Shown one piece after another: positions 51,175 to 57,522 of a stretch of DNA of 64,000 nucleotides. Within the stretch, counting starts at the first letter, position 1; each line of letters opens with the position of its first letter. Under the pieces are notes generated by a model that searched no databases, had not been told where the DNA came from, and worked only from the letters and a program-made list of their open reading frames with translations. Source of the DNA: Rhodococcus sp. P1Y (GTDB lineage: Bacteria; Actinomycetota; Actinomycetes; Mycobacteriales; Mycobacteriaceae). Position numbers and translations under genes: made by a program. Location of the stretch: NCBI RefSeq assembly GCF_003641205.1, contig NZ_CP032762.1, positions 5,290,001 through 5,354,000 on the forward strand, given 5' to 3'.

Positions 51175-51954
51175 GTGGCCAGCGGAGCCCGCAACGAACC
51201 ACTGAGCTTCGACGACCCCTTGGCCCCGGCGCCACCCGAGGGAGAAGGCTTCGAGACCGGCTGGACCGTGAGGACCGGCGACGTCGATCCCGACAACCGC
51301 CTCAGATTCGACGGAATCGCGCGCTACCTACAGGACATCGGCTCGGACAACCTCGCGGCCACGTCCCTCGGCGTCACCGACCCGTTCTGGATCGTACGAA
51401 GAACGGTCATCGACGTGCATACGCCGGTGAAGTTCCCCAACCGCGTACACATGCGCCGTTGGTGCTCGTCGATGTCGACGCGATGGTCGAACATGCGGGT
51501 GAACATCACCACCGACGAGGGCGCATCGATCGAAACCGAGGGCTTCTGGATCAACATCAGCGCCACCACCGGAGGTCCGACGCGCATCAGCGACGAGGCA
51601 CTTACCCTCCTTGCCCGCACGACAGAGGAACATCGACTTCGATGGAAGGCCTGGCTCACCGAGCCTGCGCCGCCCGAATCGCATACCGATGTTCAATTCC
51701 CTTTGCGCGCAACCGATATCGACTCGTTCAACCACGTCAACAACGCAATCTACTGGCACGCCGTCGAAGAACTGCTCGTCGACCGGAGCGAGCTGCTGCG
51801 CGAACCGCACCGCGCCGTCATCGAGTACCTGTCCCCCGTTCTCGCCGGCGAACACGTCACCATCCGGCACCGCTACGACAACGGCTCTCTCACACTGTGG
51901 TTCGTCGTCGACGGGTCGGTCCGCTCAGTCGCGAAGGTCGCGCCGAGGGCCTGA
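51175..51954 (+). CDS. Acyl-ACP thioesterase-like hotdog protein
   Basis: A 259-residue protein starting with GTG at 51175, preceded by GAGGAG. It has two hotdog-like halves: ETGWTVRTGDVDPDNRLRFDGIARYLQDIG at the start, and RATDIDSFNHVNNAIYWHAVEELL in the second half with the Asn-His-Asn type active site. This is the pattern of acyl-ACP/acyl-CoA thioesterases. Its last 82 bases overlap the 3' end of the biotin-cluster ligase on the opposite strand. A link to that cluster (releasing an acyl chain) is possible but unproven. Confidence 0.8.
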   Translation: MASGARNEPLSFDDPLAPAPPEGEGFETGWTVRTGDVDPDNRLRFDGIARYLQDIGSDNLAATSLGVTDPFWIVRRTVIDVHTPVKFPNRVHMRRWCSSMSTRWSNMRVNITTDEGASIETEGFWINISATTGGPTRISDEALTLLARTTEEHRLRWKAWLTEPAPPESHTDVQFPLRATDIDSFNHVNNAIYWHAVEELLVDRSELLREPHRAVIEYLSPVLAGEHVTIRHRYDNGSLTLWFVVDGSVRSVAKVAPRA

Positions 51955-53312
51955 CGGTCGATCTTGCCGCGCGGGGTGCGGGGAAGGGCATCGAGAACGC
52001 GAATGCTCGACGGCATGCTCGGGGCAGGTAATACGGTGCGCAGATGCCGTCGAATCTCTGCCGTCGACGGCGCATGCGCGTCGACCACGAGAGCGAGCGC
52101 CGGCGCCTGTCCCATCCTGGCGTCGGGCAATGCAATCGCGGCCGCGTCGACGACTCCCGAAATATCCAGTGCTGCAGCCTCGATCGGCGCCAATTCCACG
52201 TTGAGGCCCGCCCTGATCAGGGTGTCGGAGTCTCGACCGAACAGAGTCAACTCCCTACCCTCGATCGAACCCCTGTCGCCTACCGTCATCCAGCCGTCGA
52301 CGGGCCCGCTCTGGATCCCCATGTCGGTGAGGTAGCCGTCGAACAGCATGTCGCTGCGCACGTGAACAACACCGTCGCGAATCTGCGCTTCGACCCCGTC
52401 GAACAGAATTCCCGCGCTCGGCTCGACCCCACGGTCGTAGGAAACGAAGCTGAGCTCGGATGCGCCGTAGAAGTGTGTCAGCGATGCAGTGGGCAATACC
52501 TCCTGCAGCGCAACGCGCCCGGACGTCGGCCAGCGGGCGGCACTGGAGAGCACCTCGCGAACGCTCGTCACCGGTCCGATCCCCGATCTCACGATGTCCC
52601 AGGCGATGGTCGGCACCGAATACAGGTGCGTCGCTTCGCTTTCGAGCGCATCGGCCGCTGGCCGCAGATCGACGGTCGCTCCCCTGGTCAGGGCGTGCAA
52701 CGCGCCGTACAGAAAGTGCGTGTGATCGAGCACTCCCGGGGTCGACACTCTGTCTCCGGGTCGAATGTCGAAAATCGCGTCACTCCGGTCGAGTGTTCGC
52801 GCCCAAGAACGTTGACTCCGGACGAACAGCTTGGGTTCACCCGTCGTACCGGAGGTGACACCGACGAGCAGTTCGCTCTGCGGGGTCGCGGCCATGTGGG
52901 GGTGGCCTGATTCGTCCAGAAATGCGACCGGATTCGCGCAGCCGAGGCGGCTGAGCCTGCGATGCTGATTCGGCTCGGCCAGCACCACATTCGGTGCCGC
53001 CAGCTCCATGATTCTCGCGAACTGGACGGGCAACAGATGCCGGTGCAGCAACACCACCGACACTCCCGAATGCATCGCGGCAGCCACCGCAACGATCGAA
53101 CCCACATCGGACGTCGGAAGAACCGCCACTCGGCGCATGCCACCCATCGCGGCGGCTGTGCGCTGCACTCGGTCCCAGAGTTCGCCGTACGACACTGCGT
53201 CACGACGGTCGACGACTGCGACCGCCGCACTGTCGGCTTCCACTCGGCACGCTATCCGTGAGGTGAGAAGCTCAGGCATCGGCGTGCTCGGTTCACGGCC
53301 CGGCTCAATCAT
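51873..53312 (-). CDS. AMP-dependent ligase of the biotin-transport cluster (1)
   Basis: A 479-residue ANL-superfamily enzyme. The P-loop-like ATP motif is LLVGVTSGTTGEPKLFVRSQ, the acyl-binding/A5 region is HFYGASELSFVSY, the A8-like hinge is GRDSDTLIRAGLNVELAPIE and the catalytic Lys is in LPRTPRGKIDRQAL. So it should activate a carboxylic acid as acyl-AMP and then CoA. It is the last gene of the bioY operon. The ATG at 53312 lies in the last unit of the 17-bp mini-ORF array; ATG 53279 (MPELLTSR) is an alternative and may be the original start. Confidence 0.82.
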   Translation of the reverse strand: MIEPGREPSTPMPELLTSRIACRVEADSAAVAVVDRRDAVSYGELWDRVQRTAAAMGGMRRVAVLPTSDVGSIVAVAAAMHSGVSVVLLHRHLLPVQFARIMELAAPNVVLAEPNQHRRLSRLGCANPVAFLDESGHPHMAATPQSELLVGVTSGTTGEPKLFVRSQRSWARTLDRSDAIFDIRPGDRVSTPGVLDHTHFLYGALHALTRGATVDLRPAADALESEATHLYSVPTIAWDIVRSGIGPVTSVREVLSSAARWPTSGRVALQEVLPTASLTHFYGASELSFVSYDRGVEPSAGILFDGVEAQIRDGVVHVRSDMLFDGYLTDMGIQSGPVDGWMTVGDRGSIEGRELTLFGRDSDTLIRAGLNVELAPIEAAALDISGVVDAAAIALPDARMGQAPALALVVDAHAPSTAEIRRHLRTVLPAPSMPSSIRVLDALPRTPRGKIDRQALGATFATERTDPSTTNHSVREPLS

Positions 53313-53385
53313 CGGCGCAGTTCAATCATCGGCGCAGTTCAGTCATCGGCGCAGTTCAGTCATCGGCGCAGTTCAGTCATCGTCG
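53305..53385 (-). repeat. 17-bp tandem array forming a chain of mini-ORFs between ecfT and the ligase
   Basis: Four full units (ACTGCGCCGATGACTGA, two with ATT in place of ACT) plus the related ecfT end. On the minus strand each ATG opens a six-codon frame (MTELRR three times, then MIELRR). Its TGA overlaps the next unit's ATG (ATGA), and the last stop overlaps the ligase ATG at 53312. The period is 17, so the frame shifts by two each time. It appears to be a slipped-strand duplication of the ecfT-ligase junction and may set the coupling between the two genes. Confidence 0.85.
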
Positions 53386-53975
53386 ACGCCCCTGGCGACG
53401 AGAGCGTCTCCCAACGCATCGGCCGTTCGAAGTGCCCGGACGAGAACGGGTGTCGCGAGCGCAGTCATCGACCACTGAAGGCCCCGCGCCTTTCTCGCCT
53501 CGGAGACCTCGCCCACGATCGTCGCGAGGATCGGAATACAACGAATAGCCAGCGCGAGCATCAACCCGATCCGTTCGGGGTCGACTCCGAACCGCCGCAG
53601 TGGTCCGAGCGCCCGCGTCACCGTATCGAGCATGTCGGTGACCCGGGTTGTCAGCGTCACGAGCGCCGCGAGCGCCACCGAGATCAGCAAGACTCCGCAT
53701 ACCACGATTGCGCGGGTGGGAGAGGTGATGATCACCTGGAACACCGCGATGATCACGATCATCCACAGCACCGGACGTAGCTGCGCCAGAGCAAGTTTCG
53801 CAGGAATACGTGCGACCGCATACAGCAGAGCAACCGCGATTGCGACGATCCCGACGACTACCGGCGTGCGCACGAACAGCGTCGCGGCGAGAATCGAGAT
53901 CAGCAGAAGTGCCAACTTCACCCCGGCGGGAAGCCGATGCACAACCGTGTCCCCCGGGCGGTACAGCCCGATCAC
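53373..53975 (-). CDS. bioN: ECF transporter transmembrane subunit T (BioN-like)
   Basis: A 200-residue membrane protein with about five helices. It carries the EcfT coupling motif EARKARG near the C-terminus and ends LVARGVDDD. Its partner ATPase overlaps it by four bases, and BioY is in the same operon, so it should be the T component of a biotin ECF transporter. The final codons GAC GAT GAC TGA merge into the tandem array described at 53305-53385. Confidence 0.87.
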   Translation of the reverse strand: MIGLYRPGDTVVHRLPAGVKLALLLISILAATLFVRTPVVVGIVAIAVALLYAVARIPAKLALAQLRPVLWMIVIIAVFQVIITSPTRAIVVCGVLLISVALAALVTLTTRVTDMLDTVTRALGPLRRFGVDPERIGLMLALAIRCIPILATIVGEVSEARKARGLQWSMTALATPVLVRALRTADALGDALVARGVDDD

Positions 53976-54652
53976 AGGACCAGCTCCTGGTAGGCCGGGA
54001 CCGCGTCGTCCGGTGTGCCGTCGAACGCGACGAGTCCGTCGTCGATGACGATGACACGCTCGAACGACTCCAGCAGCGCCAACTGATGGGTCACGACGAT
54101 CACCTGCTGATCGATCGAGTCGAGCGCTTCGGAGACGACGCGCGCATTGCGGAGGTCGAGCAGGGTGGTCGGCTCGTCCGCGACGACGACCTCCGGCCGT
54201 CGGATGAGGACCGCGCCGATGGCCAACAACTGCTTCTGTCCGCCGGACAACAGGTGGGCGGGGTGCTCGGCGTGCCCGTCCAACCGAAACCTGGTCAAGA
54301 TCTCCTGCACTCGATCGGCGATCTCGTCCTTGCTCAACTTCGATCGCCTGAGCGAGAACGCGAGATCCTCGCCGACGGTAGGCATCACTATCTGATTGTC
54401 GGGGTCGGTGAAGACGAAGCCGACCTTCTTGCGAACCTGCCCACCCTTCTTCGCCGGATCGATACCGTCCACCGTCACGGTTCCCGATGTGGGCGTCAGC
54501 AGCCCGTTGATGGTGCGGGCAAGTGTCGACTTGCCCGAACCGTTCGATCCGATGATTCCGACCCTGCGTTCGGTGATGGACAAGTCGATGCCTCGCAGCA
54601 CCTCTCGTTCACCGAACGAGTGCCGGATGCCTCGAAACACGATCTCGCTCAC
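53972..54652 (-). CDS. bioM: ECF transporter ATPase subunit (BioM-like)
   Basis: A 226-residue ATPase starting with GTG at 54652 (VSEIVFRGIRHSFGEREVL). Walker A is GSNGSGKST, the signature LLSGGQKQLLAIGA, Walker B VVVADEPTTLLD and the switch VVTHQLALL. The Q-loop lies near VFTDPDNQIVMPTVGED, a typical EcfA feature. The start overlaps the thiolase stop (GTGA) and the stop overlaps ecfT. With BioN and BioY it forms the biotin importer. The alternative start at 54655 differs by one codon. Confidence 0.9.
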   Translation of the reverse strand: MSEIVFRGIRHSFGEREVLRGIDLSITERRVGIIGSNGSGKSTLARTINGLLTPTSGTVTVDGIDPAKKGGQVRKKVGFVFTDPDNQIVMPTVGEDLAFSLRRSKLSKDEIADRVQEILTRFRLDGHAEHPAHLLSGGQKQLLAIGAVLIRRPEVVVADEPTTLLDLRNARVVSEALDSIDQQVIVVTHQLALLESFERVIVIDDGLVAFDGTPDDAVPAYQELVL

Positions 54653-55788
54653 CACACACGCTCCACGATCATTGCGATACCTTGCCCGCCGCCGATGGCG
54701 CACGCCGCGAGGCCGAGTTCCGGTCCACCGTCGACGGTCATCTGACGTGCCAACCGCACCAGCAGGATCGCCCCGGACGCACCCCACGGATGGCCCATCG
54801 CGATAGCGCCTCCTTGCGGACACAACACGTCCTCGTCGACGCCGAGCGCATCGGATACTGCGAGCACGACGGATGCGAACGCCTCGGTGATTTCGATGAT
54901 TCCTATGTCCGACAGCGTGATTCCAGTCCGGTCGAGTACCTTCTCGATCGCCGGCACCGGGCCGAGTCCTGGCAGCGCTGGGTCGTGGCCAGCGACAGCG
55001 GCGCCGACAACTCGGAGTGCCGGCAGTTCGCGCGCGCGGCCCTCGGTCGTCACTGCCAACACAGCGGCACCGTCGGAAATCCCGCACGAATTGCCCGCGG
55101 TCGCGGTGCCGTCGGTCGAGAACGCAGGCCTCAGTCGCGCGAGCCGCGCCTCGGTCATGTTCGGCCGAATCCGTTGGTCTCGGTCGATACCTCCAACCGA
55201 CACGATCTCGTCGCTGAAATCGGCCGCGGCGGCCAAGGAATGCGACCGCGCCGCGTACGCGTCCTGACGTGCCCGGCCGATGCCCCGTATGCGGGCGAGA
55301 TCGTCGGCTGCAACGCCCATGTCCGGATCCGGGAATCCGGCCGGCGCGAACGGTGCTCGGGTGTAACGCACTGGGTCGGCGCCCGGCGTCGGCGGCCAGA
55401 AACGCCACGGCGCAGTACTTGCCGACTCGACGCCTCCGGCGAGAATCAGCCGCTCATCGCCGCCCTTGATGCGCGCCGCGGCCTGCATCACCGCATCGAG
55501 CCCTGCCCCGCATTGGCGATCCACCGTCACACCGGGGATCTCGACGCCGAGGCCTGCGCGCAGGGCCGCGATCCGCGCTGGGTCCCCGCCGGGGCCGAGA
55601 CAGTTGCCGAGTACGACGTCGTCGACGCGCTCGTCGCAGCCCGCTTTACGCAGCGTGCGGACCGTGGCCTGAAGAACGGGAGCGGCGAGATCGGTCGTCG
55701 TGAGCTCGGAAAATCCATGACCTGCATTGCCGATTGCAGTTCGCCACGGCGCGACGAGCACAGGGTTCGTCCCGCGTCCTCGTGTCAT
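54649..55788 (-). CDS. Thiolase (acetyl-CoA acyltransferase) in the biotin-transport operon
   Basis: A 379-residue thiolase starting MTRGRGTNPVLVAPWRTAIG. Catalytic residues are visible: the nucleophilic Cys in VDRQCGAGLDAV (about residue 90), the His in MGHPWGASGAI, and the second Cys region in LAACAIGGGQG. It is a complete thiolase able to cleave or condense beta-ketoacyl-CoA. Both ends overlap neighbours in the bioY-ligase-thiolase-ecfA-ecfT-ligase operon. Thiolases are not part of the standard biotin transport set, which makes this arrangement noteworthy. Confidence 0.9.
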   Translation of the reverse strand: MTRGRGTNPVLVAPWRTAIGNAGHGFSELTTTDLAAPVLQATVRTLRKAGCDERVDDVVLGNCLGPGGDPARIAALRAGLGVEIPGVTVDRQCGAGLDAVMQAAARIKGGDERLILAGGVESASTAPWRFWPPTPGADPVRYTRAPFAPAGFPDPDMGVAADDLARIRGIGRARQDAYAARSHSLAAAADFSDEIVSVGGIDRDQRIRPNMTEARLARLRPAFSTDGTATAGNSCGISDGAAVLAVTTEGRARELPALRVVGAAVAGHDPALPGLGPVPAIEKVLDRTGITLSDIGIIEITEAFASVVLAVSDALGVDEDVLCPQGGAIAMGHPWGASGAILLVRLARQMTVDGGPELGLAACAIGGGQGIAMIVERVW

Positions 55789-56891
55789 GAGTAAGAGTCT
55801 TTCACTCGTCCCCGGGCGATCTTCCCGCTGCCCGTGCGAGGGAGCTCGTCGACGATCGTCCATCTCCGCGGCATCGCTTCTCGCCGGAGTACGCGTCGTG
55901 CCTCGGCTTTGACGGCGTCGAGGTCGCCCGAGGTGGACAGTTCGATCACCGCGGTCACCGTTTCGCCGAGAACTGCATGCGGCGTCCCGATCACGGCGGC
56001 TGCGCTCACCCCGTCGATTGCGTCGAGTACTCGTTCGACGTCCTCGGCGACGACCGTCGCACCTCCTACGTTCACTGCTGCGCTCCCGCGGCCGTGGACG
56101 ACGAGTTCCCCGCCCGGCCGAAGCTCGGCCAGGTCACCGACCCCGACCCACTCGTCGGTACCGAGCACTCGATACGGCGACCGAACGAACAGCAGTCCGT
56201 CGCGGATGTCGGCGTCGATACCGTGGAGCAATCGAAGCGGCTCGGGCACCACGCGCGCGGCGACGAGCGACAACTCGGCGGCGCCGTAGTACTCGACCAG
56301 CCGAATCTTGTGCGCGCGCTCTCGGGCACCGTCGTCGAGGGACGTGCCCGCGACGATCGCAATGCGCAGCAGAGGGGCGTGGTCGACAAGTGTGCGAAGT
56401 ACTGCAGGAACAGCATGCGTCACGGTCGCGTGTCGCACATCGTCGGTGACGCAAGCTCCGAGCCACAGTGCGTGCACGGCCGCGAACAGGTGCATCGTGG
56501 CGTGCAGTGGACCCGTGAGAAGAACTCGGTCGTTCGAGGTGATCCCGGTGAGCGTGGTGAACTCGCCGAAGCTGCTCGTCCAGGATTCGGCGGTACGTGC
56601 CAACGGACGCGGGTTCCCGGTGGAGCCCGAGGTGCCGACCAGAAGGAAGGCGCCGTCTTCGATATCGGGTCGATCGGGCCGGGCCTGAGGATCGAAGACG
56701 CGGACTGCGGCCCCCTGCCGTGCCGCAGCGAAGACGCAGATCAGGGCGTCGGGAACGTCGAGGTCCGACGCGTCGTGCACTGTCTGCTTCGGCCAGTCCG
56801 CGATCGCGGTATCGAGATCGGCGTAGGTGAGCGATCGGCCGTTCCAGTCGATCGCGACGTCGCCCGCCGATCCACCCGGCAGGACGCTCAC
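55785..56891 (-). CDS. Short AMP-dependent ligase of the biotin-transport cluster (2)
   Basis: A 368-residue ANL enzyme, shorter than usual (500-550). It has LLVGTSGSTGNPRPLARTAE (ATP loop), EYYGAAELSLVAA (A5), VHGRGSAAVNVGGATVVAEDVE (hinge) and PRTGSGKIARGRVKD with the catalytic Lys. The N-terminal region is compressed to about 100 residues. The second gene of the operon, it overlaps bioY and the thiolase by four bases each. Together with the ligase at 51873 it gives two related but diverged ligases; one may have lost part of the acyl-binding domain. Confidence 0.82.
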   Translation of the reverse strand: MSVLPGGSAGDVAIDWNGRSLTYADLDTAIADWPKQTVHDASDLDVPDALICVFAAARQGAAVRVFDPQARPDRPDIEDGAFLLVGTSGSTGNPRPLARTAESWTSSFGEFTTLTGITSNDRVLLTGPLHATMHLFAAVHALWLGACVTDDVRHATVTHAVPAVLRTLVDHAPLLRIAIVAGTSLDDGARERAHKIRLVEYYGAAELSLVAARVVPEPLRLLHGIDADIRDGLLFVRSPYRVLGTDEWVGVGDLAELRPGGELVVHGRGSAAVNVGGATVVAEDVERVLDAIDGVSAAAVIGTPHAVLGETVTAVIELSTSGDLDAVKAEARRVLRREAMPRRWTIVDELPRTGSGKIARGRVKDSYS

Positions 56892-57484
56892 CGGGTCGCG
56901 ATGATCCCGGGGTACGCCCGGTGCACACTCTTCGCGACGACGGTGGCGATGACGACCTTCACGAGATCACCGGGGATGTAGGCGAATGTGCTGGTGATCG
57001 CGGCCGTGATCGACAGGTCGGTACGCAGCAGCAAACCGATGACCCCGAAAACGTAGATCACGACAATGCCGCCGAACGCGTTGATCAGCAGGCCCAGAAC
57101 GACGGGGTACTTCGGCAGGATGCGGGCGGTGAGGAACCCGATGACGAGAACGCCCGGGATCCATCCGACGAGGTAACCGGCACTCGGACCGGCAAGCGCC
57201 GTCAACCCCGTGCGGCCACCCGACAACAACGGCAGCCCGATGAGGGTGAGCGCGATGAACACTGCGACGGCAGCTACGCCTTTACGCGCCCCGAGGACGG
57301 CACCGGTGAGGATGACGCCGAGCGTCTGCAGCGTGATCGGGACGCCGCTGACCCCGACGGTGATCGATCCTGCTAGGCCCAGGGCTGCGATGAGCGCCGC
57401 GAACACAGCGATTTGTGCCATGTCTCTGGCCGAGATAAGAGACTTCGAACCCGACACTGATGACTCCTGTACGCCTTCGGACAT
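56888..57484 (-). CDS. bioY: Biotin transporter substrate-binding subunit BioY
   Basis: A 198-residue integral membrane protein with about six helices starting MSEGVQESSVSGSKSLIS. The BioY signature regions ITVGVSGVPITLQTLGVILTG and LSGGRTGLTALAGPSAGYLVGWI are clear. ATG 57484 is preceded by GAGGAG; an earlier GTG at 57490 is less likely. A BioQ-like palindrome sits 22-38 bases upstream. It is the first gene of the operon. BioY is the high-affinity biotin-binding S component and works with EcfA/EcfT. Confidence 0.93.
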   Translation of the reverse strand: MSEGVQESSVSGSKSLISARDMAQIAVFAALIAALGLAGSITVGVSGVPITLQTLGVILTGAVLGARKGVAAVAVFIALTLIGLPLLSGGRTGLTALAGPSAGYLVGWIPGVLVIGFLTARILPKYPVVLGLLINAFGGIVVIYVFGVIGLLLRTDLSITAAITSTFAYIPGDLVKVVIATVVAKSVHRAYPGIIATR

Positions 57485-57505
57485 GACCACTCCTCGTGAT
57501 GCAAA

Positions 57506-57522
57506 CTTGAACGGCGTTCAAG
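57506..57522. promoter_or_regulatory. BioQ-like operator upstream of bioY
   Basis: CTTGAACGGCGTTCAAG is a perfect 7-bp inverted repeat around three bases. It fits the actinobacterial BioQ core TGAAC-N3-GTTCA (C. glutamicum BioQ binds TGAAC-N3-GTTAC). It lies 22 bases before the bioY start, so the whole operon is probably repressed when biotin is sufficient. The bioQ gene itself is not in the window. Confidence 0.7.

Follow-up and report, generated by a model that had tools for sequence, protein, structure and literature searches.

Background

Why would an operon for biotin import carry enzymes of acyl-coenzyme A (CoA) metabolism? The question is raised by a 64,000-nucleotide stretch of the Rhodococcus sp. 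P1Y genome (the window; positions 5290001-5354000 of a single contig of 5,868,661 bp), in which the genes of a predicted energy-coupling factor (ECF) importer for biotin, bioY, ecfA and ecfT, share an operon with a thiolase-fold protein and two ANL acyl-CoA ligases, behind a palindrome that matches the binding site of the biotin regulator BioQ. An earlier annotation, made from the letters of the window alone (the sequence-only reading), had singled out this arrangement as a candidate for an undescribed biotin-controlled acyl-CoA pathway, with the supply of pimelate-type units for biotin synthesis as a possible function and a convergent acyl-acyl carrier protein (ACP) thioesterase as a possible further partner.

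We followed the operon through other genomes and compared its thiolase with catalytically complete relatives. It is very likely that the ligase-thiolase-importer set is a biotin-controlled module whose substrate is biotin itself or a ring-containing compound and whose thiolase has lost the catalytic residue Cys378. More specifically, the operon may import biotin-like molecules and process a ring-containing relative of biotin for use as biotin, a reading for which we give a rough probability of 0.42.

Results

The operon in the window

The operon consists of six genes preceded by the palindrome:

57506-57522, no strand, perfect 17-bp palindrome CTTGAACGGCGTTCAAG with the BioQ site TGAAC-N3-GTTCA (BioQ consensus of PMC3398298)
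56888-57490, minus strand, bioY, S component of the ECF biotin importer (PF02632, 121.5 bits)
55785-56891, minus strand, ligase 1, short ANL acyl-CoA ligase of 368 amino acids (PF00501/PF13193)
54649-55788, minus strand, thiolase-fold protein of 379 amino acids with Cys89 and His348 and with Ala in place of Cys378 (PF00108/PF02803)
53972-54652, minus strand, ecfA, ATPase of the ECF importer (PF00005; TIGR04520 at 196.3 bits, under its cut-off)
53373-53975, minus strand, ecfT, transmembrane coupling protein (PF02361, CbiQ, 57.4 bits)
51873-53312, minus strand, ligase 2, ANL acyl-CoA ligase of 479 amino acids (PF00501/PF13193)

The gene order, the coordinates and the 4-bp overlaps given by the sequence-only reading were confirmed from the sequence and the family matches, the overlaps lying at 56888-56891 (bioY/ligase 1), 55785-55788 (ligase 1/thiolase), 54649-54652 (thiolase/ecfA) and 53972-53975 (ecfA/ecfT). 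The presence of PF02632, PF00005 and PF02361 proteins in one operon with such overlaps identifies BioY-EcfA-EcfT as a predicted biotin importer, and the sole relative of BioY in the PDB is BioY 4dve.

Loss of Cys378 in the module thiolases

The window thiolase matches TIGR01930 at 342 bits, over the cut-off, and has the thiolase fold with Cys89 and His348. In its CxG loop, Ala occupies the place of Cys378, the residue that acts as acid/base in thiolase catalysis (PMC3406046, PMC6790690). We aligned 81 sequences, comprising 66 module thiolases picked by similarity to the window thiolase or by linkage and blind to residue 378, 14 paralogues from the window's genome and PDB 4n44. All 81 retain Cys89 and the GHP His348. 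At position 378 each of the 15 comparison thiolases has Cys, and each of the 66 module thiolases has Ala, Ser or Gly instead. Position 378 is likewise Ala in 120 of 120 sequences when the window thiolase is taken together with its 119 closest database relatives. This family-wide loss with three different replacements means that the function of the module thiolases is kept without Cys378.

In the Bacillus model PRK06690, changing Ala to Cys at position 378 alters the score by -0.1 bits, so that there is no preference for Cys, and Gly gains 3.2 bits; for the 14 other thiolase models listed the same change to Cys is worth an additional 4.7 to 5.9 bits. The window thiolase scores 312.6 bits with PRK06690, below the cut-off of 498, and is the genome's top match to this model by 62 bits. 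As to ketoacyl synthases (KAS), the Pfam matches are Thiolase_N and Thiolase_C, the ketoacyl-synt domain reaches 19.9 bits against a cut-off of 20.8, and no KAS III model is among the 25 NCBIfam matches listed for the window proteins.

The loss of Cys378 goes together with the genomic context. When bacterial genomes were searched with an alignment of 12 module thiolases, at least 592 matching stretches were obtained; among the best 80 of these, Cys378 is present in 77 loci, none of which has BioY, and the 3 loci without Cys378 all have BioY and a ligase. A draw of 296 Actinobacteria yielded matches at E <= 1e-70 in 15 genomes, of which 12 were new. Nine of the 12 have Cys378 and neither BioY nor ligase in the 3.2 to 4.2-kb locus, and 3 are without Cys378, with a ligase in 3/3, BioY in 2 and no BioY within 6 kb in the third. 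The six Cys378-less thiolases that these two mechanical samples added thus have an adjoining ligase in 6/6 and BioY in 5/6. A FastTree phylogeny built after removal of the catalytic column separated 69 Cys378-less thiolases exactly from 92 others with support 1.0; the split stayed exact, at 72 against 101 (support 0.996), once the further loci were included.

The sequence-only reading had asked whether the ligases and thiolase might be equally common beside unrelated transporters. The 0/77 against 3/3 with BioY among those best 80 speaks in part against this; on the other side, BioY loci can also contain an ordinary thiolase with Cys378, at a distance of more than 5 kb in L044 and adjoining bioY in L101, and it is not the rule that every thiolase near bioY lacks Cys378. 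The second of these loci, on plasmid pA of Rhodococcus pyridinivorans (512082-524615), has bioY beside a beta-oxidation-like cluster and insertion sequence elements, without a module ligase; the acetyl-CoA C-acetyltransferase of this cluster is the enzyme that retains Cys378.

Linkage to BioY in Mycobacteriales

Among 248 Mycobacteriales genomes of at least 90% completeness, the thiolase (called at E <= 1e-75) is present in 56, and BioY accompanies it in 56/56, compared with 97/192 thiolase-negative genomes (Fisher p = 1.6e-14). This link is far from chance and bears out the earlier claim that acyl-CoA enzymes have been added to a biotin-controlled BioY-EcfA-EcfT importer. In 13-kb regions around the thiolase, 55 loci besides that of the window, the ligase is found in 54, EcfA in 53, BioY in 52, EcfT in 51 and all of these together with the thiolase in 50. 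The order BioY-ligase-thiolase-EcfA-EcfT on one strand is kept in 37/55 loci, and in 11/55 the ligase-thiolase pair faces the importer genes.

Ligase 2 is rarer, with a strong match in 4/55 loci and in Nocardia donostiensis (L155), which has the same six-gene order as the window. In one genome of the window's genus (G063, carrying locus L044) ligase 1 is missing next to the thiolase, and BioY, thiolase, EcfA, EcfT and ligase 2 are retained, a pattern suggesting that either ligase can replace the other.

Biotin genes of the host genomes

If the module fed de novo biotin synthesis, its hosts should possess the rest of that pathway. The gene bioB is present in 172/248 Mycobacteriales genomes, and is absent from 29/56 thiolase-positive, 46/97 BioY-positive thiolase-negative and 1/95 BioY-negative genomes; its frequency among BioY-positive genomes is similar with (27/56) and without (51/97) the thiolase (p = 0.62). 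None of the 29 bioB-less thiolase-positive genomes has bioA over the cut-off; weaker matches in 20 of them (278 to 326 bits against 405) we take for other aminotransferases. Moreover, bioD is absent in 27 of the 29, being present in G119 and G189. Six bioB-positive genomes served as controls, and bioA and bioD were both found in 5 and neither in 1 (G024).

Since over half of the thiolase-positive hosts are without bioB, pimelate supply, whether of the BioW, BioC-BioH or BioZ kind, cannot be the general role of the module, and the sequence-only reading fails on this point. Feeding de novo synthesis would be useless in these hosts, which argues that the substrate should be biotin or a compound that already contains the rings. 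The window genome itself possesses bioA, bioB, bioD and a bioF-like gene, and the BioC model gives weak matches there, none over the cut-off.

Two genomes deserve separate mention. G024 (Mycobacteriales, family f12), the control in which the thresholds applied gave bioB and neither bioA nor bioD, may rely on desthiobiotin taken up from outside; G063, described above for its ligases, is without bioB, bioD and bioA over the cut-off. Outside this order, Rhizobium etli CFN42, R. phaseoli CIAT652 and Sinorhizobium meliloti 1021 have been described as biotin auxotrophs (PMC8914248). Plasmids of R. phaseoli and R. etli, CIAT 652 included, carry thiolase homologues; both ligase and thiolase are present in strain IE4803 of R. 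etli and strain Ak57 of S. meliloti. These are mostly strains other than the published auxotrophs.

Predicted control by BioQ

The BioQ-like palindrome reported by the sequence-only reading is perfect and has the exact BioQ core, TGAAC-N3-GTTCA (PMC3398298), 15 bases from the GTG of bioY; an ATG at 57484 after GGAG is the likelier start of that gene. The exact core occurs 4 times in the genome and a reversed control pattern twice. Two of the 4 sites lie between the divergent bioB and TetR genes, one at this operon and one at the junction of bioA with the bioF-like gene (394.8 bits against a cut-off of 426.45), and it is unlikely that chance placed all 4 at biotin genes. Within the window alone there are 1 exact match and 1 with a mismatch, no more than expected by chance; it is the genome-wide placement, not the window count, that carries the argument. 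With sites upstream of bio genes and a TetR gene beside bioB, the genome has what is expected of a BioQ regulon, and the operon is probably controlled by biotin through repression at this predicted site. Biotin limitation raises the expression of bioY 18.8-fold in C. glutamicum (PMC3398298).

A BioQ core lies within 220 bp upstream of BioY in 8 of the 52 relatives with BioY in the locus, among them all 5 other thiolase-bearing members of the window's own family, and is missing in 44. In 7 of these 44 (L077, L080, L081, L082, L085, L087 and L089) another palindrome, GTTGTG-N7-CACAAC, lies upstream of BioY and is possibly the site of another biotin regulator.

The module outside Mycobacteriales

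In plasmid and genome records, bioY, AMP ligase and thiolase occur together in Azospirillum thermophilum, A. oryzae, Alloyangia pacifica, Paracoccus yeei (without ecf genes alongside), Pseudosulfitobacter, Shinella and Sinorhizobium meliloti, and also in Nonomuraea, Microbispora, two further actinobacteria and Fictibacillus barbaricus. The module thus spans Mycobacteriales, other Actinobacteria, Alphaproteobacteria and Bacillota.

The Fictibacillus bioY-ligase-thiolase operon lies downstream of TGTTAAC-N16-GTTAACA, a BirA-type box. Its thiolase scores 509.2 bits with PRK06690 (cut-off 498) and its ligase 537.6 bits with PRK07638 (cut-off 518), and one control genome exceeds each of these cut-offs. 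We take PRK06690 and PRK07638 to be the families of Bacillus subtilis YhfS and YhfT, with yhfU-yhfT-yhfS as the presumed gene order in Bacillus.

Genes that accompany the module

In Fictibacillus the operon continues, again with 4-bp overlaps, into genes for a FAS1_DH-region protein and a MaoC dehydratase. All four Rhizobiaceae loci examined have a 4HBT thioesterase and a reductase of the medium-chain dehydrogenase/reductase (MDR) superfamily (ADH_zinc_N_2), and the 3/3 Rhodobacterales loci with the module have nitroreductases that are 62-73% identical among themselves. Dehydratase, reductase and thioesterase would fit the needs of a two-carbon extension followed by release. The full partner set was seen in no single lineage among the loci examined.

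Among the 22 largest clusters of extra genes in the Mycobacteriales flanks, each is restricted to a group of loci. A 4HBT-like thioesterase gene stands directly upstream of the ligase in 10 family-f14 loci, including L055 (seen by eye). Such a gene often adjoins an ABC-F gene in actinobacteria; given this synteny, it may be there by chance or as a partner, and was not counted as a partner.

Remaining features of the locus

Two further features lie in or beside the operon:

53305-53382, minus strand, 17-bp tandem repeat of 4.6 copies that links ecfT to ligase 2 (reading frames by eye)
51175-51954, plus strand, acyl-ACP thioesterase of the FatA type, convergent neighbour (PF01643/PF20791)

The repeat is what the sequence-only reading had called a mini-open reading frame (mini-ORF) array, and its description holds: on the minus strand every copy forms a mini-ORF of six codons (MTELRR or MIELRR), the stop TGA of one and the start ATG of the following one being fused in the 4-bp sequence ATGA. 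It looks like a repeated duplication of the ATGA junction. By eye, ligase 2 stays in frame whatever the number of copies. The partnership suggested for the thioesterase has to be dropped, because it had no tblastn match (E <= 1e-4) in the regions of about 6 kb on either side in any of the 55 relatives; the gene is not part of the module.

Ligase 1 carries the P-loop TSGSTG and the motifs YGAAE and PRTGSGK. PRK07638 is the top NCBIfam model of both ligases, far below the cut-off of 518 (131 bits for ligase 1, 182.4 for ligase 2); as a marker it was rejected because ligase 2 ranks only fifth in the genome, so that the best-model match of ligase 2 is not specific. The closest named homologues of ligase 1 and the thiolase are from Rhodococcus and Rhodococcoides. 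The predicted structures (pLDDT, the predicted local distance difference test, of 83 for ligase 1 and 78 for the thiolase) are informative for the fold only.

Discussion

A possible route from a shortened biotin to the vitamin

The observations would be accommodated by the following sequence of events. BioQ, whose site is observed, would shut the operon when biotin suffices. Under shortage, the imported carboxylic acid would be converted by an ANL ligase to its CoA thioester, from which the thiolase-fold enzyme would load the acyl group on Cys89. An ordinary thiolase reaction is not expected, because the acid/base Cys378 is gone; a KAS-like condensation with a decarboxylating donor (malonyl-CoA or malonyl-ACP) seems more likely, the alternative being the use of another base. 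Reduction, dehydration, a second reduction and release of the thioester would then leave the side chain two carbons longer. The enzymes for these last steps would be general fatty acid enzymes in the window's host and products of linked genes in some other lineages; as the Mycobacteriales loci have, beyond two weak matches, no linked reductase or dehydratase of the kinds seen in those lineages, the steps after condensation would have to be borrowed from elsewhere.

Bisnorbiotin would fit best as the substrate, being a common breakdown product of biotin that retains the rings and lacks two carbons. It accounts for 13-23% of total urinary biotin (PMC9106636). That the step is the conversion of bisnorbiotin to biotin nevertheless stays a tentative proposal, rather less likely than not, in contrast to the very likely module-level reading given at the outset. 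The widest version, a side-chain repair pathway in several phyla in which BioY imports bisnorbiotin, the ligase activates it, a Cys378-less decarboxylating condensing enzyme adds two carbons and the vitamin is restored, we would call doubtful.

Several facts weigh against such processing of a biotin relative. The nearest fold of the thiolase-like protein is PcaF, a degradative thiolase, and Asn316 is Thr in the window thiolase, which makes even a KAS-like site non-standard; loss of Cys378 alone fixes neither the direction nor the reaction. A tblastn search of the 55 Mycobacteriales loci with the partner proteins of the other lineages gave two weak matches only, and we know of no BioY that takes up bisnorbiotin. 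The association with the importer is not strict either. BioY occurs without the thiolase, at the threshold used, in 97/153 BioY-positive Mycobacteriales genomes; 3/55 of the loci in this order have no BioY close by, one of the 3 having no ligase as well; ligase and thiolase occur without BioY close by in R. etli and R. leguminosarum and, within 6 kb, in the actinobacterium L228. Of 18 plasmid loci examined, chosen by eye (17 from BioY lists, 1 from the ligase list), 11 have bioY without the module, in R. pyridinivorans, Pseudalkalibacillus, L. plantarum, L. backii, Thermomicrobium, Deinococcus, D. shibae, Tsukamurella, Paracoccus sp. TOH, Arthrobacter and Fusobacterium.

Other explanations

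The module might instead trap or transfer biotin itself. The ligase would retain scarce biotin in the cell as biotinyl-CoA, much as FadD retains fatty acids. The thiolase-fold protein would be an acyltransferase or thioesterase that uses Cys89 and His348 without Claisen chemistry. Loss of Cys378 with these two residues kept suits acyl transfer or hydrolysis as well as it suits condensation, and both the occurrence in bioB-less hosts and the placement with the importer, under the type of control with which bioY of C. glutamicum rises on biotin limitation, agree with it; yet BirA already activates and attaches biotin, and there would be no place for the dehydratase pair, the MDR reductase and the nitroreductase in the clusters of other lineages, and we hold this explanation to be unlikely. 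Biotin sparing is distinctly unlikely. Here acetyl-CoA carboxylase would run short of biotin, the ligase would scavenge fatty acids and the thiolase-like enzyme would start or extend chains, in line with the biotin-type control, with hosts of both kinds as regards bioB and with the resemblance of the ligases to FadD-type enzymes. Such a role gives no reason for the position of the pair, which in most of the loci seen lies within the bioY operon or next to it (52 of the 55 Mycobacteriales loci have BioY), and an acetyl-CoA-based condensation is the least expected reaction of an enzyme without Cys378.

A ligase and a thiolase are also the two ends of a beta-oxidation set, and the degradative PcaF as nearest fold would suit a breakdown of biotin, or the detoxification of an antimetabolite, by beta-oxidation of the side chain. 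We think this improbable: expression would be expected under biotin shortage, bioB-less hosts carry the module, the acid/base Cys378 is absent across the whole family, and an acyl-CoA dehydrogenase is annotated in none of the eight annotated loci. Pimelate supply for de novo synthesis is the least credible of all. The biotin genes of the window genome, in which no BioC was found over the cut-off, would leave room for it, and BioZ is a precedent for a condensing enzyme recruited for a pimelate precursor (PMC11089781), but the hosts without bioB or bioA could not use pimelate and bioB is no more frequent with the thiolase than without it. As a general role it is refuted. Processing of a ring-containing biotin relative remains our preferred reading.

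What the module would mean

The results join an orphan pair of Bacillus and Staphylococcus to a family that extends over Bacillota, Actinobacteria and Alphaproteobacteria, and the finding that about half of the Mycobacteriales hosts have no bioB removes the obvious pimelate idea. Salvage routes exist for the breakdown products of other vitamins, and salvage of degraded biotin, if true, would add biotin to their number. Vitamers that are now deemed waste would then have to be included in growth assays and in models of how biotin is exchanged in soil, sea and gut.

Comparison with known systems

The biotin importer BioYMN of Corynebacterium glutamicum likewise consists of BioY with its own EcfA and EcfT under predicted BioQ control, but its operon, as described in the consulted part of PMC3398298, is bioY-bioM-bioN only. 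With the Zoogloea thiolase and PcaF the module thiolases share the fold, the Cys89 nucleophile and the GHP His, and differ in having Ala, Ser or Gly for Cys378 (72/72 examined). BioZ of Rhizobiales, of the KAS III type, is another case of a condensing enzyme taken over by biotin metabolism (PMC11089781); it belongs to another family and serves pimelate, whereas 29/56 of the module hosts have no bioB.

The closest known system is the yhfU-yhfT-yhfS set of Bacillus and the yhfT-yhfS pair of Staphylococcus, which similarly place homologues of BioY, the ANL ligase and the thiolase under a biotin repressor. The claim that the system is undescribed therefore stands in part: yhfS-yhfT is in print as a member of the BirA regulon of B. 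subtilis and S. aureus, and the ligase-thiolase pair of Bacillota is in that respect already known, with no function given in the consulted parts of these sources (PMC6391492, PMC7235819, PMC11089781). Among the open-licence PubMed Central papers listed by our searches, none pointed in its title or abstract opening to a function of the pair or to bacterial salvage of bisnorbiotin. Within those limits, what is new here is the distribution over several phyla, the missing Cys378 and the test on bioB-less auxotrophs. Like the YhfS/YhfT type, the module is linked to bioY with a biotin-repressor site and its thiolase is without Cys at 378, a position at which the PRK06690 model shows no preference for that residue. 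The window operon differs in that BioQ replaces BirA, in having its own ecfA-ecfT, a ligase of 368 amino acids and a second ligase, and in that its proteins score under the PRK06690 and PRK07638 cut-offs, whereas those of Fictibacillus exceed both. It appears to be the actinobacterial version, under BioQ control, of a set already known from Bacillus as an orphan.

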